IMG/VR virus record: IMGVR_UViG_3300005329_000004
Coordinates: 1 to 56,399 of that record
Strand: one strand, 5' to 3'
From: a virus
Length of the DNA: 56,399 bases
The notes under the pieces were generated by a model. It was not told the DNA's origin. It ran no database searches and saw nothing but the letters and a program-made list of their open reading frames with translations. Each line of letters starts with the position of its first letter. Within the stretch, counting starts at the first letter, position 1. The position numbers and the translations under genes are program-made. Positions 3,939 through 21,019 of the stretch are shown one piece after another.

Positions 3939-5774
3939 ATGGCGGCGAGCTTTCGGAGTGCGGGAACGTGGTCGTTCACAGCGAACAACGTGGCGACCCC
4001 GTTCACGTGCACGCCCGGCGCCCCGGCGAGCGTCGCCGTGGGCGACTGTCTCGTGCTCATTGCCGAGTCGCGGAGTATTACCGCGACCATGGCGACGCCG
4101 AGTGGGTGGAATCTCGTTACCGCGTTCCCCAAGCGAAGCGGTACGGCCTCCGGCGGGTCGATCTATGTCTTCACACGAATAGCTGACGGCACAGCGAACG
4201 ACACGCCGAGTCCAGTCTGGTCAGGGCTGACGACGGGCACGAGCGGTGACGCGAGCGGGTGCGGCATCCTCTGCTACATCGGACTGTCGGAGACGCTTGA
4301 TGGGACTGTCCAGGCATCAGTCCTGACGTCGCAGACGTCGACGAGCGTCATCCCGGCATTCACGACCGGAACGAACGGCAGCATGGTGATCGGTGTCGCC
4401 ATGAAGCTGCTCGAGTCAAGCGCGCAGACGTCGACCGTCGCGACGTTCACCGAGCGGGCCGATAATTCGACCACGAGCGGCACGGGCCACATTGTCGAAG
4501 TCTGTGATTTGTTGAAGGCGACGGCCGGAAGTTCAGGGACTGCGACGGTCACGTGGTCAGCCACGACGTCAGCGAGCGCGCTCGCGGTATCGCTTGGGCT
4601 CAAAGCCGCCATCACGCTCGTCACGCTGGTCGTTGCCGATGCCGCGCTCGCGCTCGCCGCCGACACGCCGGATCTGATACAAGCGAATACGCTGGCGATC
4701 GCGGACGCTGCACTGGCGCTCGCGGCCGACAGCCCATCGCTCGTTCAAGCGAATACCATCGCCGTCGCCGACAGCGCATTCGCCTTGGCCATCGAGAGTC
4801 CGACGTTGGCGCAATCGTTCACGCTCGCGCCGAGCGACTGCGGGTTCGCACTCTCGGTCGACTCCCCATCGCTGGCGCAGGCGAGTATGCTGGCCGTCTC
4901 AGACGCCGCGTTCCAAGTGGCATTCGATAGCCCAGCGCTCGTGCAGGCGAACGTGATCGCCGTGGGCGACGCGGTGTGCAACCTCACGGTTGATTCGCCG
5001 ACGCTGGTCGTCGCATTCATGCTCTCGGTCGACGATGTCAGCCTCGCACTCGGAGCTGATGCACCGAACCTGGCGCAGGCGAATATTCTCGCCCCGGTGG
5101 ACAGCGCAATCTCGCTGACCGCTGACGCGATTCTGCTCACGCAAGCATCGACCGTCTCCATCAATGATGCGGCGTCGGCCCTACAGCTCGACGCGCCGGC
5201 ACTCTCCGAAGCCGCAACCGTTGCCGTCGACGATGCGACGGTCGCGCTCGGCGCGGACGGTCCGATGCTCGCGCAGGCGAACGTCCTCCACATCGCCGAT
5301 GCGCTGATTGCCCTGCAACTCGATGCGCCGACTCTCGCGAGCGGCCTCGCGCTCGATGTGGCCGACAGCGCGGTGGCCGTGGCAGCCGATTCGCCAATAC
5401 TGGCGGAAGCGGCGACGCTCGCCGTGGCTGATAGCATCCTCGGACTGCTTGCCGATTCGCCATCGCTCGCCGCAGGTGTAACCCTGGCGGTCGACGACGC
5501 GCTTGTTGCCAATGCCTTCGACGCGCTGGGGCTGACACAGGCGAATGTGCTCGCTATCAGTGATGCCGCGGTTCGTCTTGTCAGCGACTCCCTCTTACTG
5601 TCGCTCCCAGGCGATGTTGTCACAAACGTCGTCGCGATTTCACGCTCGTGCATCGACATTGCCGCAACCTGTGTCTCGACGAAATGGACCGGGGCGAATC
5701 TGACCCTCGACGCGATCGCGCAGTCGCGTCCTCTCACTCTTGCCGTTTCTCTTTCCGGAGCATTCGATGGCTGA
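3939..5774 (+). CDS. Tail fibre or appendage protein with fifteen 22-residue repeats
   Basis: 611 residues. Residues 1-227 form a Thr/Ser/Gly-rich beta-type domain. From residue 228 to 557 the protein is fifteen uninterrupted 22-residue repeats with a core like LAVADAALAL followed by ADSPSLVQA. Asp at repeat position 7 and Asp/Glu at position 15 are nearly constant. The last 54 residues leave the pattern. Similar short repeats rich in DA and AD occur in other phage fibre-like proteins I recall. It lies between virion-type genes and overlaps the next gene by eight bases. A shaft built from the repeats is the simplest reading. Confidence 0.7.
   Translation: MAASFRSAGTWSFTANNVATPFTCTPGAPASVAVGDCLVLIAESRSITATMATPSGWNLVTAFPKRSGTASGGSIYVFTRIADGTANDTPSPVWSGLTTGTSGDASGCGILCYIGLSETLDGTVQASVLTSQTSTSVIPAFTTGTNGSMVIGVAMKLLESSAQTSTVATFTERADNSTTSGTGHIVEVCDLLKATAGSSGTATVTWSATTSASALAVSLGLKAAITLVTLVVADAALALAADTPDLIQANTLAIADAALALAADSPSLVQANTIAVADSAFALAIESPTLAQSFTLAPSDCGFALSVDSPSLAQASMLAVSDAAFQVAFDSPALVQANVIAVGDAVCNLTVDSPTLVVAFMLSVDDVSLALGADAPNLAQANILAPVDSAISLTADAILLTQASTVSINDAASALQLDAPALSEAATVAVDDATVALGADGPMLAQANVLHIADALIALQLDAPTLASGLALDVADSAVAVAADSPILAEAATLAVADSILGLLADSPSLAAGVTLAVDDALVANAFDALGLTQANVLAISDAAVRLVSDSLLLSLPGDVVTNVVAISRSCIDIAATCVSTKWTGANLTLDAIAQSRPLTLAVSLSGAFDG
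4620..5609 (+). repeat. Array of fifteen 66-bp coding repeats
   Basis: Fifteen back-to-back units of exactly 66 bases with no length variation. The DNA units differ a lot from each other, while the encoded 22-residue pattern is kept (hydrophobic at positions 3-5, Asp at 7, Asp/Glu at 15, Leu at 19). This indicates old duplication and selection on the protein. Confidence 0.9.
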
Positions 5775-10745: not shown

Positions 10746-11029
10746 GGACGCTTGAATTCCACAGGCCGATGTCGTGCCAGCTCGCCGAAGCCGCCGTCCT
10801 GGCCGAGCACGAAGCCGCGCAGCGGCGCGTCGTCGAAGAGCATGGCCAGCGTCCAGCGTTCGGCGACGAGCCGGTCGAGTTGGTGCGATTCCTCGGCGAA
10901 TCGACGCGCATGGGGCTCATCACGAGCGTCGCGAACGATTTGGAACGCTGCGGTCGCAATGTGGCGATTCGGTGGATTCACGACGACGCCACGCTCATCA
11001 TCGGCGTCGCGATCGTGGAGTTCGCATGA
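10742..11029 (+). CDS. Small early protein, unknown function
   Basis: 95 residues between two ATGA overlaps. An N-terminal helical part (CQLAEAAVLAEHEAAQRRVV) precedes a mixed segment ending VAIRWIHDDATLIIGVAIVE, which looks like a small alpha/beta fold. No family recognised. Confidence 0.58.
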   Translation: MRTLEFHRPMSCQLAEAAVLAEHEAAQRRVVEEHGQRPAFGDEPVELVRFLGESTRMGLITSVANDLERCGRNVAIRWIHDDATLIIGVAIVEFA

Positions 11030-11565: not shown

Positions 11566-11903
11566 GCACGCCCGAAGTCGGAGCCCGTTTCCTCTACGTC
11601 TCGACAAGTCAGATGACCGCTGAACTTGCGGGCAAGCCATGCACCTTGGTTGAAGTCTACGGGCCAGAGATCCAATGGCCGTTTCGCGTGCGTTTCGACA
11701 GCGGCATCGAGTCCGTCGCGGTCGATCGCGACTTGGCGCCGATCGCAGCCGATGGCTCAGTCGGCGAACCGATGCAGCCCGAGCCCGGCTCCCGCAAAGG
11801 CTGGGACGCCTACTCGAAGATGATTCAACACTCACCCAATAAGATCGTCGCCGCCGGAGAATCCGCGAGGGAATCCGCGAGCGCGATCGGAGATGCCGCA
11901 TGA
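11562..11903 (+). CDS. Early protein, unknown function
   Basis: 113 residues. The first 70 residues look like a small beta barrel (ARFLYVSTSQMTAELAGKPC, PFRVRFDSGIESVAVDRDL), the rest is a charged tail. No family recognised. It sits directly before the annealing-protein candidate with an ATGA overlap. Confidence 0.55.
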   Translation: MSTPEVGARFLYVSTSQMTAELAGKPCTLVEVYGPEIQWPFRVRFDSGIESVAVDRDLAPIAADGSVGEPMQPEPGSRKGWDAYSKMIQHSPNKIVAAGESARESASAIGDAA

Positions 11904-14330: not shown

Positions 14331-15196
14331 AATTCTCGCGCATCTCAGTCACGAAGAAGGGCGTCGAGCTCGCGTACGAACGAAAGGACGAACACAAGTC
14401 GGAAGAGGTTGTCGCCAAATCCGCTGAGCGACCGCTGCCATCCTTCGCGGACGCGCTCCAGTCGTTCGCCGCGTTCGTGATCGATCTCTTGGAGATCCCC
14501 GACGAGTGGCGCGAGAACCTGACGATTACGACGCTCAATCTGTCGGAAGACAAGAACGGGTATCGCGGGCTGATCGTCACGGCGACGCGGCCGATCCCGA
14601 AAGCGTATGACCGGCCGCTCGTCATGAACACGCCGCTCGTCCGCGAAGGCAGCGAGGACGCGAGCGACGAGGCGTGCACGCTGTCGGATGAAGTCTTGGA
14701 GCTCGTGTCGCTCGTCGAGGGCGAAGCCGTGCGGTACTTGAACGGCGAGCGCGAGCAGCTCGATCTCTTGAAGCCGTCCAATTCCGAGAACGTCGCCGAG
14801 TTCAACGAAAACGCGGCGCACGCTGAAGTGCAGTCGACGCGGAAGCCGAAAGGTCGGAAGGGCAAAACGCCGCCGCAATCCGAGACGGGTGTCGCGCTCG
14901 TCGTGAACGAACCAGGCGAGCCGCTTGACGACAACGCGCTCCGTCAGTTGCTGCTCATGGTCGAACGGGATGTGCCGATCGATGCGTTGGCCATTCTCAC
15001 GTCGTCCGAGCGCGAAGCGTCCGCCGCATGGGCCAAGGCGCGACAACAGGAGATGCTCGGCACGCTGGATTCGACGGCGATGCCGGCGGAACCCGCCTGT
15101 GTGATCCGCTACGCCACCTTGCCGCTCAAGGCCGACGCGTGGACGGGTGATCACGTGCCGCCCAAGGCGACCGACGTCGAGACTGTGCACGGCTAA
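14327..15196 (+). CDS. Early protein, unknown function
   Basis: 289 residues, starting in the ATGA overlap with the overprinted frame, with AAGGA upstream. Residues 1-130 look folded ([40 protein letters not shown]), residues 165-190 are a Lys-rich linker ([12 protein letters not shown]), and the last 100 residues are a separate helical part. A family with the first domain is common in phage early regions; no function is known to me. Confidence 0.62.
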
Positions 15197-15693
15197 TGGG
15201 CGGCGTGAATATGAGCGCGGTCGACCGAATGGGGCGGCCGATTCGGCGCGGCCCGGAGAGTCCGCAATGGCGGGGCGGGCGCTGCACGAGCAGCGCGTAC
15301 GTGACGCTGCTCGTGCCGGATCACCCGCGCGCCGGAAAACAAGGACGCGTTTGCGAGCACGTGCTTGTCGCCGAACGCGCCTTGGGCAAATACCTGCCCT
15401 CAACGGCTGAGGTTCATCACGTCGACGAGAACAAACAGAATAACGACCCGCATAACCTCGTGATATGCCAAGACCATGCGTACCATGGGCTCCTACATCG
15501 ACGAATGCGCGCATTCAAGGCGTGCGGCAACCCGAATGCGCGGTGCTGCGTGCGGTGCGGATCCTATCGAGATCAAGAGGACATTCGAGTGAGTCGCGGC
15601 GGACAGTCGTATCATCGGTCCTGCCAGGCAAAGCACGAGCGTGAGCGAAAGGCGGCGATCCGCGCAGCAAGGCGTACGAGGGGCTCTGTATGA
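15196..15693 (+). CDS. HNH endonuclease
   Basis: 165 residues with a TAATG stop/start overlap. RGGRCTSSAYVTLLVPDHPR leads to CEHVLVAERALGKYLPS and the HNH core VHHVDENKQNNDPHNLVICQ, with the first His pair, Asn and final His. Two Cys pairs follow (CCVRCG, then C near RSCQAK). This is the HNH type that acts on double-stranded DNA. Second HNH gene in the early region, not closely similar to the one at 11026. Confidence 0.85.
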   Translation: MGGVNMSAVDRMGRPIRRGPESPQWRGGRCTSSAYVTLLVPDHPRAGKQGRVCEHVLVAERALGKYLPSTAEVHHVDENKQNNDPHNLVICQDHAYHGLLHRRMRAFKACGNPNARCCVRCGSYRDQEDIRVSRGGQSYHRSCQAKHERERKAAIRAARRTRGSV

Positions 15694-15857
15694 ACTGCGA
15701 CCGCGAATACGACAAGTTCCGCGCGCTCTTCCCCACGTTTAGCGCCACCAAGGCGGCGCGAGAGTGCGAGCGCGCCTGGCGGAAGTTCCTCCGCGACGCC
15801 AACGAGTCTAACGACAGCCCGTCCCGTCCTCGTCGTGGACCCCAACAGGAGAAATGA
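15690..15857 (+). CDS. Small early protein with repeat-derived tail
   Basis: 55 residues (MNCDREYDKFRALFPTFSAT, then KAARECERAWRKFLRD). The C-terminal PRRGPQQEK is encoded by the start-associated repeat at 15831, so the tail probably came from that element and not from the protein's own history. ATGA overlaps at both ends. Confidence 0.55.
   Translation: MNCDREYDKFRALFPTFSATKAARECERAWRKFLRDANESNDSPSRPRRGPQQEK
15831..15850 (+). repeat. Start-associated repeat, type A copy 1
   Basis: CGTCGTGGACCCCAACAGGA, ending three bases before the ATG at 15854. Its AGGA end serves as the ribosome site. Identical to 16171-16190. Confidence 0.8.
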
Positions 15858-16165
15858 CAGTGCCGCAATTCAGAAAGAAGCCGGTCGTGATCGACGCGTT
15901 TCGGTGGCTTGCGAAGCCGCCCGTGAAGGCATGGAAAGATCTGGATGCGTGGCTCGTGTCGCTCGGACTTCCGCCCGCCGACGAAGCGGAAACGGACGAT
16001 GATTGCCCGCTCTGGGTGAATGGCGACGAGTCGATCACGATTCCAACGCTCGAAGGCGATATGCGATGTGACATCGGCGATTGGATAATCCGAGGTGTGA
16101 AGGGCGAGCTGTATCCCTGTAAGGATGAGATTTTCCAAATGACATACGAAGCGGTCGAGCCATGA
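15854..16165 (+). CDS. Conserved small phage protein
   Basis: 103 residues. FRKKPVVIDAFRW at the start and GDWIIRGVKGELYPCKDEIF near the end are the signature of a family widespread in phages of many hosts. Its structure suggests a small ligand- or protein-binding fold; no role is established that I know of. A type A start-associated repeat lies just upstream. Confidence 0.72.
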   Translation: MTVPQFRKKPVVIDAFRWLAKPPVKAWKDLDAWLVSLGLPPADEAETDDDCPLWVNGDESITIPTLEGDMRCDIGDWIIRGVKGELYPCKDEIFQMTYEAVEP

Positions 16166-16170
16166 CCTCC

Positions 16171-16190
16171 CGTCGTGGACCCCAACAGGA
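16171..16190 (+). repeat. Start-associated repeat, type A copy 2
   Basis: CGTCGTGGACCCCAACAGGA, seven bases before the ATG at 16197, here fully between genes. It shares a further CCTCC-type upstream flank with copy 3. Confidence 0.8.
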
Positions 16191-16196
16191 AGGCAC

Positions 16197-16361
16197 ATGA
16201 GAACTTATTTCCGCGTCCCCTACCTGCGCTGGTCACCGCTGCATCGACACTGGCACGTCAAGCGGTGCGATGGGAACCTGCGTGCGATTTGGCGTCATCA
16301 ACTCGCGCAATTCCGCCTCTGGTGGCGCGCCTCCCGTCGTGGACCCGGAGAACGCCCATGA
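16197..16361 (+). CDS. Small basic aromatic protein
   Basis: 54 residues rich in Arg, Trp and His (MRTYFRVPYLRWSPLHRHWH, LAQFRLWWRA). A type A start repeat with AGGA lies upstream. The last residues (SRRGPGERP) come from the next repeat copy. ATGA overlap with the next gene. Similar short basic Trp-rich proteins occur in phage early regions; function unknown. Confidence 0.5.
   Translation: MRTYFRVPYLRWSPLHRHWHVKRCDGNLRAIWRHQLAQFRLWWRASRRGPGERP
16335..16350 (+). repeat. Start-associated repeat, type A copy 3
   Basis: CGTCGTGGACCC followed by GGAG, seven bases before the ATG at 16358. The CAACA part of copies 1 and 2 is missing, but the ribosome site is kept. Confidence 0.7.
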
Positions 16362-16789
16362 GCGACCATGCGATGCTGGAGAAAGGAACGTTCGTCGTGA
16401 CGCTTCGCCCGTTCGCCTACGGCGTCAAGCCGTTCGGACGCGAAATGCGCCACGTGCCGGCTGGCACCAATGGATACGTGGTATCGGCAGAGCCAGAAGG
16501 GCGCGGCGTCACCGTCATTAAGCTCATCGGCCACGAACAGACCTACGCGACGTTCACGGCGGGGATTGCTGAGCAGTTCGCGGCGGTCGAGGCGTACGTA
16601 CCGAGCGAGCTGTGGTTCGCCTGCCTCACAGGCGATTGTCCGCATGAGACGCAAGCCGAGTGCGATGCGTGGATTCGCAACGAGCTACTTGAGCAGGCGA
16701 GAGAAGCCGCTTTACTGCGCGCTCAGCTCGCCGAAGCGCGGGACGAGCTAAAAGAGTGTCGCGAACTGTACGAGGCAAATCATGGCTGA
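16358..16789 (+). CDS. Early protein with duplicated WFAC module
   Basis: 143 residues. The N-terminal half is a beta-type domain (GTFVVTLRPFAYGVKPFG, YVVSAEPEGRGVTVIKLIG). The C-terminal half contains WFACLTGDCPHETQAECDA and then LRAQLAEARDEL, a coiled coil. This Cys/His module is repeated in the next gene. The two Cys-x-n-His groups might bind zinc. It overlaps the next gene by eight bases. Confidence 0.6.
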   Translation: MSDHAMLEKGTFVVTLRPFAYGVKPFGREMRHVPAGTNGYVVSAEPEGRGVTVIKLIGHEQTYATFTAGIAEQFAAVEAYVPSELWFACLTGDCPHETQAECDAWIRNELLEQAREAALLRAQLAEARDELKECRELYEANHG

Positions 16790-17372
16790 CTCCAATACCC
16801 CGCGCGCCGCCGTCGAGTCGATACGCCCAACCGACGAGGAGATCGACGCGGTGATCAAGAGCCTTAGCTCAACGGCTCGGTATGGACCGCGGAAGTCCCA
16901 TCGTGACGAGGCGACCGCTGTCATTCGAATCGTCACCGCGCTCCGCGCTCAACTCGCCGAGGCGACCAAGAACAAGGTCGACGAGACGTGGTTCGCATGC
17001 ATGAGTGGTGACTGCCCCCACGAGACGCAAGCGGAATGCGATGCGCAGTTGCGGACTTCGCTAATCGAAACGACACAGGAAAATATCAAGCTGCGCGCTC
17101 AACTCGCCGAGGCGAGCCGAGACAGGGAGCAAGCGAAAGCCGAGCGCGAGCTGCTCGTCGACGTGGTTCGTCTCGTGGGCGAATCCCACTGGGACGCGCC
17201 GGGGTGGAACCTCATCGTACGTGAGGATAAAGCGCACCTGCTATTCGACATCGCGTATGGATATATCAAGGACTCGCGCCCGAGTGATGGCCTGACAGCA
17301 ACCGCGCTTCGCACTCGGCAGAAACAACTCTTTGCGGCCCGCGCTCTCTCTCCAGGAGAAGCCGCCGAATGA
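16782..17372 (+). CDS. Early coiled-coil protein with duplicated WFAC module
   Basis: 196 residues. RPTDEEIDAVIKSLSSTARY opens a helical start, then LRAQLAEATKN, the module WFACMSGDCPHETQAECDA shared with the gene before, a second LRAQLAEASRD, and a C-terminal domain (LLVDVVRLVGESHWDAPGW). The repeats suggest that recombination within this small-gene region built the protein. Function unknown. Confidence 0.62.
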   Translation: MADSNTPRAAVESIRPTDEEIDAVIKSLSSTARYGPRKSHRDEATAVIRIVTALRAQLAEATKNKVDETWFACMSGDCPHETQAECDAQLRTSLIETTQENIKLRAQLAEASRDREQAKAERELLVDVVRLVGESHWDAPGWNLIVREDKAHLLFDIAYGYIKDSRPSDGLTATALRTRQKQLFAARALSPGEAAE

Positions 17373-17614
17373 GCCGATTCATTGACGCCTATCAAGGCCC
17401 CTGCCCGACATGCGACGGCGACGGATCAGACGACGCACCGTTCGACGCGAACTGTCCAGCGGCATGGGCGCATCGCTTCATCGAATCGCGCGGCGGTATC
17501 ACGTCGCACGACATGGCCGCATCGCGAGCGTTCCGCAACATTGGCCGCGCTCCCGCTTCTCCTCCCCTCGCGTCGTCGCCTCGTGGAGCCAAAACACCTG
17601 AGACGCCCCAATGA
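17369..17614 (+). CDS. Small protein with CPTC motif
   Basis: 81 residues starting in an ATGA overlap. CPTCDGDGSDD resembles half of a zinc site. The last residues (LASSPRGAKTPETPQ) are encoded by a type B start-associated repeat, and the same LASSPRGA tail ends the protein at 18496-18873. Confidence 0.52.
   Translation: MSRFIDAYQGPCPTCDGDGSDDAPFDANCPAAWAHRFIESRGGITSHDMAASRAFRNIGRAPASPPLASSPRGAKTPETPQ
17571..17595 (+). repeat. Start-associated repeat, type B copy 1
   Basis: A 25-base unit with core CCTCGTGGAGCCAAAAC, 15 bases before the ATG at 17611. All 25 bases equal 18471-18495. The upstream CTCG flank is shared with copy 3 as well. Confidence 0.8.
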
Positions 17615-17853
17615 AACGCCCTCGCGAATTATCGAACGCAGACGTCCGCGTGCTCCTCAAAGTGGAGTGCGATCTGGCCGGATCGCAGCGAGCGTGGGCG
17701 AAGGCGCACGGGGTGAGCGCCGCGTACGTGAGCGATGTGCTAGCTGATCGGCGTAACCCTGGCCGTTCAATCCTCGCACCGCTCGGCCTCATTGAGACCA
17801 CACGATACGTGCCGATTGCGCGCACGTACGCACCGGAGACGCCCGAGCGATGA
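17611..17853 (+). CDS. Small helix-turn-helix protein (Cro-like)
   Basis: 80 residues. GSQRAWAKAHGVSAAYVSDV followed by LADRRNPG is a compact XRE-type helix-turn-helix, with GVSAAYVSDVLADRR as recognition helix. Only about 20 residues follow. Such small HTH proteins act as Cro-like repressors or activators of phage operons. ATGA overlaps on both sides. Confidence 0.68.
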   Translation: MKRPRELSNADVRVLLKVECDLAGSQRAWAKAHGVSAAYVSDVLADRRNPGRSILAPLGLIETTRYVPIARTYAPETPER

Positions 17854-18461
17854 GCGCACCCGTGAAACTCGTTCGCGAAAGCGATGGCGCGGCTGTCGCT
17901 CACGCGTGTGCAACGTGCGGGCGCGTCTACAGCCTCAACGACGCGTTCGCGGAGCGGTGCTGTGACCGGCATTGCGAGGACTGTAATGCGTCGCTCTCGC
18001 CCGACTTTCGTAAGCAACCATACACCGTTTGCGATCGGTGCCGCGCGAAGCGCGAGGCCGCTCGCGACGCAGCAATGATTGCCAAGGCGTCGCGAGTTCC
18101 CGCTTCCGAATATGATGGGCCGGTCTACGTCGATGGTGCGTGGAACGACGGCTATCTGCGCGACCTCGACGAATTTGAGGAGTGGTGGGAATGCGAGCAC
18201 GACGAAAGCGACCCGATGCCGTCCGAGGTGTGGGCCTGTACGACGCGCCGCATCCAGATCCCGAGCGCCGATAGCATCGTCGAGCAGGCGACGCAGGATG
18301 AGTACGACGGCGCGTACGACGCAATGCCGCCGATCGACGCGCTTCAAGCAGCAATCGACGTCTACAACGCGAGCGTCACCGCCGAATCGTGGGAGGTCGA
18401 CTATTCGCGGCGCATCGTGCTGCCCGTCTCGCCGCTCGGCGCCAGCGTGGAGCCCACATGA
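17850..18461 (+). CDS. Cys-rich zinc-binding early protein
   Basis: 203 residues. Four Cys groups in the first 75 residues (CATCG, CCDRHCEDC, CDRC) point to two zinc sites. The rest is acidic (EFEEWWECEHDESDP) with a helical end (PPIDALQAAIDVYNASVTAE). The family recurs in phage early regions. A role in DNA or protein binding is plausible, not shown. Confidence 0.6.
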   Translation: MSAPVKLVRESDGAAVAHACATCGRVYSLNDAFAERCCDRHCEDCNASLSPDFRKQPYTVCDRCRAKREAARDAAMIAKASRVPASEYDGPVYVDGAWNDGYLRDLDEFEEWWECEHDESDPMPSEVWACTTRRIQIPSADSIVEQATQDEYDGAYDAMPPIDALQAAIDVYNASVTAESWEVDYSRRIVLPVSPLGASVEPT

Positions 18462-18470
18462 CCGGTTCGG

Positions 18471-18495
18471 CGTCGTCGCCTCGTGGAGCCAAAAC
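18471..18495 (+). repeat. Start-associated repeat, type B copy 2
   Basis: Identical over 25 bases to 17571-17595 and ending directly at the ATG at 18496. It has no obvious Shine-Dalgarno run beyond GTGGAG. Confidence 0.8.
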
Positions 18496-18873
18496 ATGAG
18501 CACTCACCAATGGTTCGACGCGTCCAGCGAGTTTCCGCATCTAACGCCCGGTGCAGAGAGTTGTCGCGTGTGTGGTGCGATGCGCGGCCCGGTGAACGAA
18601 GCGCGCCAGTGTCCGGGCCCCGTTTCGATGTCGATTGACGATTGGTTTCGCGGCGAACCTGTGGGAGAGTGTTCGCGATGCCATCGGCCAATCGCGGACT
18701 TCTCACCGCCGATGCCAGGCCACATGACCGCAGGCTACTACGTCGCGAGCGCGTGGCAGAAATGCGCGAACCCCGGAGAGGTCTACATCTGCGACGCCTG
18801 CATGTGGGCAGACCCCCGATACATCGCTGACTATGGCCTCGCGTCGTCGCCTCGTGGAGCGCAACCAGAATGA
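18496..18873 (+). CDS. Cys-rich zinc-binding early protein
   Basis: 125 residues with paired Cys groups CRVCG, CSRCH and CDAC spaced for two zinc sites. It begins HQWFDASSEFPHLTPGAESC and ends with the repeat-derived tail LASSPRGAQPE. It is not clearly similar to the zinc protein upstream apart from Cys content. Function unknown. Confidence 0.6.
   Translation: MSTHQWFDASSEFPHLTPGAESCRVCGAMRGPVNEARQCPGPVSMSIDDWFRGEPVGECSRCHRPIADFSPPMPGHMTAGYYVASAWQKCANPGEVYICDACMWADPRYIADYGLASSPRGAQPE
18842..18860 (+). repeat. Start-associated repeat, type B copy 3
   Basis: CGTCGTCGCCTCGTGGAGC, nine bases before the ATG at 18870; the following CCAAAAC of the other copies is here GCAACCAG. The flank CTCG upstream equals copy 1. 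Confidence 0.75.
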
Positions 18874-19199
18874 ACCTCCAGCCTTCGCCCGTGGTCGAGC
18901 AGCAACCCTACTCGCGCGAACCCTCGGACGCGCGCATTCAACGCGAGCGAGATCAAGCCGTCGCGGCCGAATGGCATCAGATCGACCGCGTATTGCGCGT
19001 GCTCGCCACGGCCTTAGACGCGATCGGCGCCAAGCTCGGCGAGGCGCGCGAGACGATCGTGTACGACCAGAACGCCGCGATCGAGATCGTCGACGAGCAG
19101 CGGCAGTCGGTCATCGAAGTGGCGGCGCAACTCCGAACGGCCCGACTTAACCCCGACGCCAACCAGGAACGGAAAGCCGCCGAGGCGGCGAAGCGATGA
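18870..19199 (+). CDS. Coiled-coil early protein
   Basis: 109 residues, almost wholly helical (VAAEWHQIDRVLRVLATALD, IEIVDEQRQSVIEVAAQLRT). It lies directly before the HerA-like ATPase with an ATGA overlap, so it may be its partner or loader. No family recognised. Confidence 0.58.
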   Translation: MNLQPSPVVEQQPYSREPSDARIQRERDQAVAAEWHQIDRVLRVLATALDAIGAKLGEARETIVYDQNAAIEIVDEQRQSVIEVAAQLRTARLNPDANQERKAAEAAKR

Positions 19200-21019
19200 C
19201 GAGTATCCCGATTCTCACGTATAAACCGGCGGGCGCCGGCGTGCACGTCGATCTCGACCGGCTGATCGCGTCCAGGTGTCTCGTCCAGGCGAACAGCGGC
19301 GGAGGGAAGTCGCGCGCGATCCGGCAACTCCTCGAAGAGACGCACGGCCGCGTAATGCATCTCGTGATCGATCCGGAGGGCGAGTTTGTCACGCTGCGCG
19401 AGCGATTCGACTACATCATCGCCGCGAAAACCGGCGGGGACGCGATCGCCGCGCCGAAATACGCCAAGCGCCTGTGCCGCACGTTGGTCGAACTGAACGC
19501 GTCGGCTATTCTCGACCTCTACGACTTGTCGCTCGACGACCGCCGGTGGTACGTGGAGAATTTCCTGACGGAGCTCATGGCGCTCCCGCGCGATCTCTGG
19601 CGCCCGATCATCGTCGTGATCGACGAGATGCACGTCTTTGCGCCGGAAGCCGGGCAGGCGCGATCCGCAGAAGCCGTGACAGCGCTCGCCACGCAGGGGC
19701 GGAAACGTGGATTCGCCCTCGTGGGCGCAACGCAACGCATTTCGAAGTTGCACAAGGATGTCGCCGCGGAACTCCTGAACAAGATGATCGGCCGGACGGG
19801 GCTCGACATCGATGTGAAGCGCGCGGGCGACGAACTCGGCATGGGGAAGGAGGAGCGGAGCGCTCTCAAGACGCTCGCGCCGGGGGAGTTCTTCGTCTAC
19901 GGTCCGGCGATCGCGAACGAAGTCGCCCGCGTCAAGACTGGCGACGTCCTGACGAGTCATCCCGAGGCCGGACGCGTCGGGACGATCGCGCCGCCGCCAT
20001 CGGCGAAAGTCAAAGCGATGCTGGCGCGACTCGCCGATCTCCCAAAAGAAGCCGAAGAAGAAGCGCGCACGATCGACGATTTCAAACGGCAGAATGCGCA
20101 ACTTCGTACGCAGCTCACCAAGGCGCAGAAGTCAGCCACCGTGGTCGAGAAGCCCGTCACCGTGGTCGATCAGAAAGCGATCGATCGCGCCGTCGCGACT
20201 GCCGTTATGCCGTATCGCAAGCTGATCTCGCGCGTGCAGCAACAAATGGCCAGTGCGGTCCAGGCGGTGAAGGCATTGCCCGATCGACTCGAAGCGGTCG
20301 TCGTGACCTTGGACGAGGTCCAACAGATGAACGGACATCATGCGTCTAGCACAGGCTCGGCGTCGTCGGCAGAATCGACGCGTCGGGAGTCACCCGCCGG
20401 TCCGCGTAGTGTTAGCAGCGCTACGCAGTCAGCCGTAGTAGCAACTGGCGAGGATCGTCGGGCCTCTCGCGCCGTTACACCGCGTGCAAGTTCGACCCCG
20501 GTTTCGCGCGCGAGCGAGCCGCGCAGCGATCTCAAGAAAGGCCAGCAGAAGATTCTGAACGCGCTCGCGGAGCTCGAGGCGATCGGCGTCGAGCAGGCGA
20601 CGCGTCACCAACTCGGCATGGTGGCGGGCTACAATCTGACGGGCGGGACCGGTGCCCAGCATATCGCGGGTCTCGGCGCGCTCGGGCTTGTTGAATTGCC
20701 CGACAAGGGCGCTGTGCGCCTCTCGGACGCGGGGAGAGCGGCGGCGGATGCGACGGACGTTCCGACCACGCTCGAGGAGCTCCACGAGCGCGTGCTGCGA
20801 AAACTGCCGGATGGCCAACGCCGCATCGCCGAGTATTTGATCTCCATCTATCCCGAGTCGATCTCGCGCGCGGAGCTCGGCGCCGCGGTGAATTACAATC
20901 TGACCGGCGGAACGGGCGCGCAACACGTCGCTGACTTGGTGACGGTGGGCGCGGCCAAGATCCCGGGGTCCGGCAAAGTGGTCGCGAGCGATCTCCTCTT
21001 TCCGGAGAGCTTGGTTTAA
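19196..21019 (+). CDS. HerA/FtsK-like ATPase with duplicated winged-helix tail
   Basis: 607 residues. Walker A is in QANSGGGKSRA (residues 31-41), Walker B in IIVVIDEMHVF (about 139-149), then ATQGRKRGFALVGATQR supplies the sensor and arginine region of HerA/DUF87 ATPases. A coiled coil (about 275-310) is followed by a Ser-rich linker (about 380-440). Residues 447-607 hold two related winged-helix units, each with YNLTGGTGAQH. HerA proteins form hexameric DNA pumps that work with a NurA nuclease; no NurA is seen here. A role in DNA translocation or recombination is inferred. Confidence 0.72.
   Translation: MTSIPILTYKPAGAGVHVDLDRLIASRCLVQANSGGGKSRAIRQLLEETHGRVMHLVIDPEGEFVTLRERFDYIIAAKTGGDAIAAPKYAKRLCRTLVELNASAILDLYDLSLDDRRWYVENFLTELMALPRDLWRPIIVVIDEMHVFAPEAGQARSAEAVTALATQGRKRGFALVGATQRISKLHKDVAAELLNKMIGRTGLDIDVKRAGDELGMGKEERSALKTLAPGEFFVYGPAIANEVARVKTGDVLTSHPEAGRVGTIAPPPSAKVKAMLARLADLPKEAEEEARTIDDFKRQNAQLRTQLTKAQKSATVVEKPVTVVDQKAIDRAVATAVMPYRKLISRVQQQMASAVQAVKALPDRLEAVVVTLDEVQQMNGHHASSTGSASSAESTRRESPAGPRSVSSATQSAVVATGEDRRASRAVTPRASSTPVSRASEPRSDLKKGQQKILNALAELEAIGVEQATRHQLGMVAGYNLTGGTGAQHIAGLGALGLVELPDKGAVRLSDAGRAAADATDVPTTLEELHERVLRKLPDGQRRIAEYLISIYPESISRAELGAAVNYNLTGGTGAQHVADLVTVGAAKIPGSGKVVASDLLFPESLV

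Follow-up and report, generated by a model that had tools for sequence, protein, structure and literature searches.

The DNA analysed here (the window) is the entire IMG/VR virus record IMGVR_UViG_3300005329_000004, 56,399 bases from an uncultivated virus of bacteria; the subject is a short element with the core TCGTGGASCC (S, C or G) that is repeated in a cluster of small genes of this virus. The window is probably a complete phage genome, since both of its ends carry a 110-bp direct repeat. Its genes include those for a terminase, a major head protein, a tape measure protein, a helicase and a HerA-like ATPase; tRNA and Rfam scans of the window gave no tRNA and no Rfam match. The cluster (15196-19199) directly precedes the HerA-like gene and contains an HNH endonuclease gene, a phrog_419 gene, a gene with a weak helix-turn-helix (HTH) match and genes without family. 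Gene models were made by a simple, non-standard script of our own; those of the cluster were entered by hand. The copies of the element, the micro-ORFs (ORF, open reading frame) and the genes between copies are listed in Table 1.

Table 1. Copies of the repeated element, micro-ORFs and genes lying between copies.
Feature	Position	Strand	Sequence or product	Context
Element A1	15831-15850	+	CGTCGTGGACCCCAACAGGA	C-terminal codons of ORF 15690-15857; run-up to ATG 15854 (a)
Element A2	16166-16190	+	CCTCCCGTCGTGGACCCCAACAGGA	Within micro-ORF 16162-16200; precedes start 16197
Element A3	16330-16346	+	CCTCCCGTCGTGGACCC	C-terminal codons of ORF 16197-16361; precedes start 16358
Element B1	17566-17596	+		C-terminal codons of ORF 17369-17614; core end 20 nt before start 17611
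Element B2	18470-18496	+		Within micro-ORF 18458-18499; precedes start 18496
Element B3	18837-18861	+	Core TCGTGGAGCG	C-terminal codons of ORF 18496-18873; precedes start 18870
Micro-ORF, 12 codons	16162-16200	+	MTSRRGPQQEGT	ATGA overlap with the preceding gene (stop 16163-16165) and the next (start 16197)
Micro-ORF, 13 codons	18458-18499	+	MTGSASSPRGAKT	ATGA overlap at both ends (b)
One gene	15854-16165	+	phrog_419 (E 1.2e-29), function unknown	A1-A2 interval
One small ORF	16197-16361	+	54 aa	A2-A3 interval
Two genes	17611-18461	+	17611-17853, weak HTH match (c); 17850-18461, no assigned function	B1-B2 interval
One gene	18496-18873	+	125 aa, several CxxC, no assigned function	B2-B3 interval
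a This gene could also start, with better spacing, at GTG 15860. b A GTG start at 18389 would lengthen this micro-ORF to 36 codons. c phrog_3642, E 0.0025; PF13560, E 0.018, below its cut-off.

Copies and types of the element

The core is found exactly at 15833, 16173 and 16337 (CCC, type A) and at 17581 and 18481 (GCC, type B); the sixth copy, at 18852, is a type B core with one mismatch (TCGTGGAGCG). The six copies span 15833-18861 and are all on the + strand; each stands ahead of a start codon, as had been claimed from the letters without database searches (the sequence-only reading). The copies are 164-1271 bp apart. Throughout the 56-kb genome the exact core is found five times on the + strand and not on the - strand, and outside the cluster it is absent. 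The stretches shared exactly are of 20 nt between A1 and A2 (the length claimed before), 17 nt between A2 and A3, 27 nt between B1 and B2 (long, as had been seen, although put at 25) and 20 nt among all three B copies.

The repeat family is real and beyond chance. Exact repeat pairs of at least 17 nt number 6 in 15690-19199; shuffling codons within genes 500 times gave a mean of 0.004 and a maximum of 1. Among the 6, one is a coding repeat (RAQLAEA, gene 16782-17372) and not the element. Exact pairs of at least 20 nt number 5 genome-wide, against 0 in 60 shuffles. The core with one mismatch is no commoner than chance (16 matches genome-wide, against a mean of 12.1), so it is the longer matches and their clustering that make the family significant. 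The best match of type A to type B is 14 of 19 nt; a match this good was seen in 9 of 3000 pairs drawn at random from the genome and in 16 of 2556 pairs among other upstream regions. On these alignments the kinship of the two types is moderately supported.

Repeat pairs of at least 16 nt with both copies in start zones are 4 of 11 in the window (zone fraction 0.071). They are 3 of 782 (zone fraction 0.053) in 58 other phage contigs, which are of at least 8 kb and mostly helicase relatives, with window-identical contigs and small loci excluded and mutual overlap unchecked. One of these 3 pairs is a start-side module in contig L059 (uncultivated phage), where CGCAACAAT units followed by GGCGCAAGAATGGAGGACA stand before two genes (10882-10965 and 11756-11815), with three CGCAASAAT units per site and a sequence unlike that of the window element. 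A possible degenerate seventh copy was seen in the window at 18429-18446, where SPLGAS (4 of 6 residues, matching frame) is encoded at the end of gene 17850-18461, before ATG 18458.

Reading frame and C-terminal tails

The distance from core start to ATG is 21, 24, 21, 30, 15 and 18 nt (A1-A3, B1-B3), a multiple of 3 in all six cases. That from core end to ATG is 11, 14, 11, 20, 5 and 8 nt in the same order; the range of 0-15 bases first given does not hold. In all six copies the codons CGT GGA SCC (GCG in B3) share one frame, which ends at a TGA overlapping the following ATG (ATGA), and the element forms the C-terminal tail of the upstream ORF. Such tails had been ascribed to some copies; they are real and belong to every copy. 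The type A ORFs end in SRPRRGPQQEK (A1), TSRRGPQQEGT (A2) and ASRRGPGERP (A3), the type B ORFs in ASSPRGAKTPETPQ (B1), SASSPRGAKT (B2) and ASSPRGAQPE (B3). A motif [RP]RG[PA] at most 7 residues from the C-terminus is found in 6 of the 91 gene models, which are the six element ORFs; it is internal in 3 others. The probability that the five other copies match the frame of the first by chance would be (1/3)^5 = 0.004, the copies being taken as independent. In alignments made by eye, lengths differ by 3 nt (A1/A2), 15 nt (B1/B2) and 3 nt (B2/B3), and A3 shows no net change relative to A1 although its end peptide differs.

No selection on the tail residues is apparent: by eye, the A and B tail codons show 1 synonymous and 3 non-synonymous differences, hence no sign of protein-level constraint. 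Another explanation is nascent-peptide control, in which RRGP/PRGA tails would slow the ribosome near the stop codon and tune the next start in the manner of RAGP/RAPP arrest peptides. Each of the three type A tails carries RRGP at a distance of 4-5 residues from the stop codon, and RAGP, RAPP and RGPP cores support ribosome arrest (PMC12992588); however, RRGP is not among the arrest cores tested in the available part of that paper, type B has PRGA, neither tail is a SecM/RAPP-type core (RAGP, RAPP, RGPP), the residues are not conserved between the types, and micro-ORFs of 12-13 residues leave hardly any nascent chain in the tunnel. This explanation is very improbable.

Genes between the copies

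The proteins encoded between copies have no homology beyond the tail (17369 versus 18496: a match of 9 aa, the tail alone). Duplication as the origin of these genes was therefore rejected, and the single recent duplication of one gene, named by the sequence-only reading as an outcome that would speak against its proposal, is not seen. DNA similarity between the junctions stops at the element: in ungapped comparison just 3' of the six ATGs, the 15 pairs agree at 15-25 of 60 positions, and within each type 6-11 of 30 positions match in the outer left flanks. A direct repeat stands on both sides of one or more whole genes at gene junctions, the arrangement of cluster O type insertions. Both micro-ORFs are gene-less, a start plus a tail without a body, and are apparently empty cassettes.

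An HNH endonuclease gene (15196-15693, PF13392) lies directly 5' of the ORF bearing A1. The sole clear paralogs of the cluster are 16358-16789 and 16782-17372 (aligned at 40% identity), with no element between them. These adjacent genes share a WFACxxGDCPHETQAECDA domain (16606-16692, 16982-17068) without family match, which was found in window-identical contigs only among viral contigs and in none of the genome contigs. The RAQLAEA coding unit is found at 16714-16739, 16940-16965 and 17090-17115 (22 nt identical between two sites of one gene). Elsewhere in the window, gene 3939-5774 carries degenerate 66-nt (22-codon) repeats at 4623-5546, with spacing in multiples of 66.

Cluster A mycobacteriophage stoperators are asymmetric repeated protein-binding sites. 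They are mentioned in PMC3203893 (available part). The element could likewise be a DNA operator, possibly one bound by the HTH protein encoded at 17611; its single orientation, its place at gene junctions and the weak HTH match within the cluster agree with this, but the copies are confined to 3 kb, all are in ORF ends and the frame rule is left unexplained. An operator is improbable.

Ribosome binding and RNA structure

As a start-associated sequence (SAS), the element would be an extended ribosome-binding site, or an RNA site for a phage protein, that controls translation of the downstream gene. All six copies precede a start, in one orientation and ahead of non-structural genes, and GGAG is contained in or adjoins most of them (inside the core of B2 and B3, in the longer stretch shared by A1 and A2, absent from the shared stretch of A3, too distant in B1). 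However, pairing to the anti-Shine-Dalgarno (SD) sequence averages -5.73 kcal/mol at the six junctions, against -5.71 kcal/mol for 84 genes of the + strand (the six included), and an unusually strong SD at the element was rejected. The SD is placed differently in the two types: type A has it on the 3' side of the core, B2 and B3 within the core. The core end of B1, 20 nt from the ATG, is too distant for a ribosome-binding site. The six copies have no common fold (z, -0.96 to 0.86, the best being -0.96); conserved RNA structure was rejected, as no copy folds clearly better than its own shuffles; the window has no Rfam match. The strict multiple-of-3 spacing is not predicted by such a site, and all copies are located in ORF ends.

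The traits shared with the SAS of cluster K mycobacteriophages are the single orientation and the small non-structural genes. The 13-bp cluster K consensus GGGATAGGAGCCC has 0 matches in the window with at most 2 mismatches, and one of the six core ends lies 3-7 bp upstream of the start. The role of an SAS is poorly supported, because pairing to 16S rRNA is average and one core is too far upstream; translation control, one of the two interpretations first offered, fits poorly and is rather unlikely. The other, a recombination seam, fits best with the whole unrelated genes between copies, the similarity ending at the element and the gene-less micro-ORFs.

A proposed in-frame seam between coupled small genes

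The element is proposed, with moderate confidence, to be a recombination seam whose frame is maintained by translational coupling in a chain of small phage genes. Each copy covers the final codons of an ORF as well as the stretch leading to the following start, the two meeting in ATGA. Short-homology recombination at the element is the most likely route by which new small genes were taken in; each gained gene would then be bordered by a copy at either end, and genes with unrelated bodies would have the same tail. Coupling by termination-reinitiation would require the upstream frame to reach the ATGA, and only copies and length changes that keep the frame would therefore have survived; of 14 overlapping gene pairs that have been tested, 13 showed strict translational coupling (PMC6728339, available part). 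We infer recombination as the source and coupling as the constraint, and the two micro-ORFs of 12-13 codons may be empty cassettes left in the chain. An extension of the seam proposal, tentative at best, is that genes are exchanged in units of precisely one ORF, from ATGA to ATGA, the translated seam allowing insertion, deletion or swap with coupling kept and the micro-ORFs being empty slots. The flanks of A2 are mosaic: its left flank equals that of A3 (7/7) and its right flank that of A1 (8/8), while A1 and A3 agree at only 3/7 and 2/8.

Several points weigh against the seam proposal. The mosaic is weak evidence of recombination: inserting 6 nt in frame into A1 brings back a left-hand TCCCG match, and substitution plus an indel accounts for the mosaic as well. 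The order of the B copies in the genome gives no simple nested insertion series. ATGA joins are frequent in this genome, at 32 of 81 same-strand junctions (hand-added cluster genes counted in). The caller script missed 16197-16361 and 17369-17614 and shortened 18496-18873 (weak coding scores), so the frame argument leans on ORFs without independent support. The frame could descend from one copied junction, without selection for frame. Finally, the viral and genome contig collections gave no diverged relative with the cluster: every contig that carries it is 100% identical to the window, which is why neither gain nor loss of a gene between copies was seen. The finding of the core equally often inside genes had been named as a refutation; that test is ambiguous, every copy being both within an ORF end and before a start.

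A further explanation is neutral leftovers: a single junction would have given rise to a few copies through slippage during replication or repair, and these would have no role and an inherited frame. The copies are close (164-1271 bp apart) and known only in identical contigs, and the A-to-B codons show no sign of protein-level constraint; but the genes between copies are unrelated, where tandem duplication should leave homologous neighbours. Neutral leftovers are unlikely. If the seam proposal is true, breakpoints are expected inside the element and insert lengths in multiples of three, and phages would have a built-in way to gain small genes at boundaries without breaking operons, an old question. 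The pattern rests on one genome until relatives are found.

Relatives were sought with the HerA-like protein, the helicase, the terminase, protein 17850-18461 and the 16358/16782 pair as queries. Many contigs sharing helicase/methylase genes only were found, plus two nearer relatives (L019, L102), in which no comparable cluster is covered and no exact core is present. The HerA-like protein has a duplicated C-terminal GYNLTGGTGAQHIA-type unit (20612-20931); that part is 70% identical in L019, a distant contig. Beyond window-identical contigs, scans for the element pattern gave 8 contigs for a 16-mer (L008-L012, L014-L016) and 3 for an A/B consensus (L103-L105). L103-L105 are one identical sequence around the match, as are L008, L011 and L012; L009 has one such site as an inverted pair. 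These 11 were taken as chance matches and rejected as relatives: the flanks covered show no window-like arrangement. Cluster DNA gave only short matches to phage and plasmid records; judged by query positions, these are inside gene 15854-16165 for 13 of 13 phage and 2 of 4 plasmid records. Among phage proteins, protein 18496-18873 had no match and protein 17850-18461 one distant match.

Comparison with known systems

Statements on published systems apply to the parts of the cited papers that were available. In titles and openings of abstracts on repeats at gene starts, gene boundaries and coupling, no repeated in-frame tails at ATGA junctions were found, their absence from print being unproven. 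PeSL: promoter plus stem-loop. The PeSL of T4-like phages are mobile regulatory cassettes whose repeated junction sequence was proposed to shuffle small genes (as cited in PMC4503421); the window has a repeated junction sequence too, but it is coding and has no stable fold (best z, -0.96). ATGA coupling (PMC6728339) shares ATGA overlaps with an intragenic SD; it is a general feature, and a repeated tail is not described in the available part of that paper.

The cluster K SAS is, like the window element, a short asymmetric repeat in one orientation before the starts of small non-structural genes; its usual distance from the start is 3-7 bp, and it contains AGGAG (PMC3203893). It differs in sequence, and only 6 of 125 SAS motifs are within ORFs (PMC12699233), whereas the window copies are in ORF ends, 5-20 nt from the start, with a variable SD.

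Direct repeats flanking a gained gene are already known from cluster O mycobacteriophages, and the closest precedent is Corndog gene 14. This gene is flanked by a 17-bp direct repeat, of which relatives carry a single copy at that junction; at YungJamal gene 60, the end of the upstream gene contains the left copy, whose changes are mostly synonymous (PMC4351075). As in the window, a direct repeat is found at both ends of a small gene at stop/start junctions (PMC4351075). Corndog and YungJamal differ in having one gene and a comparative empty site; the window has six copies of two types, micro-ORFs and a common frame, known from one genome.

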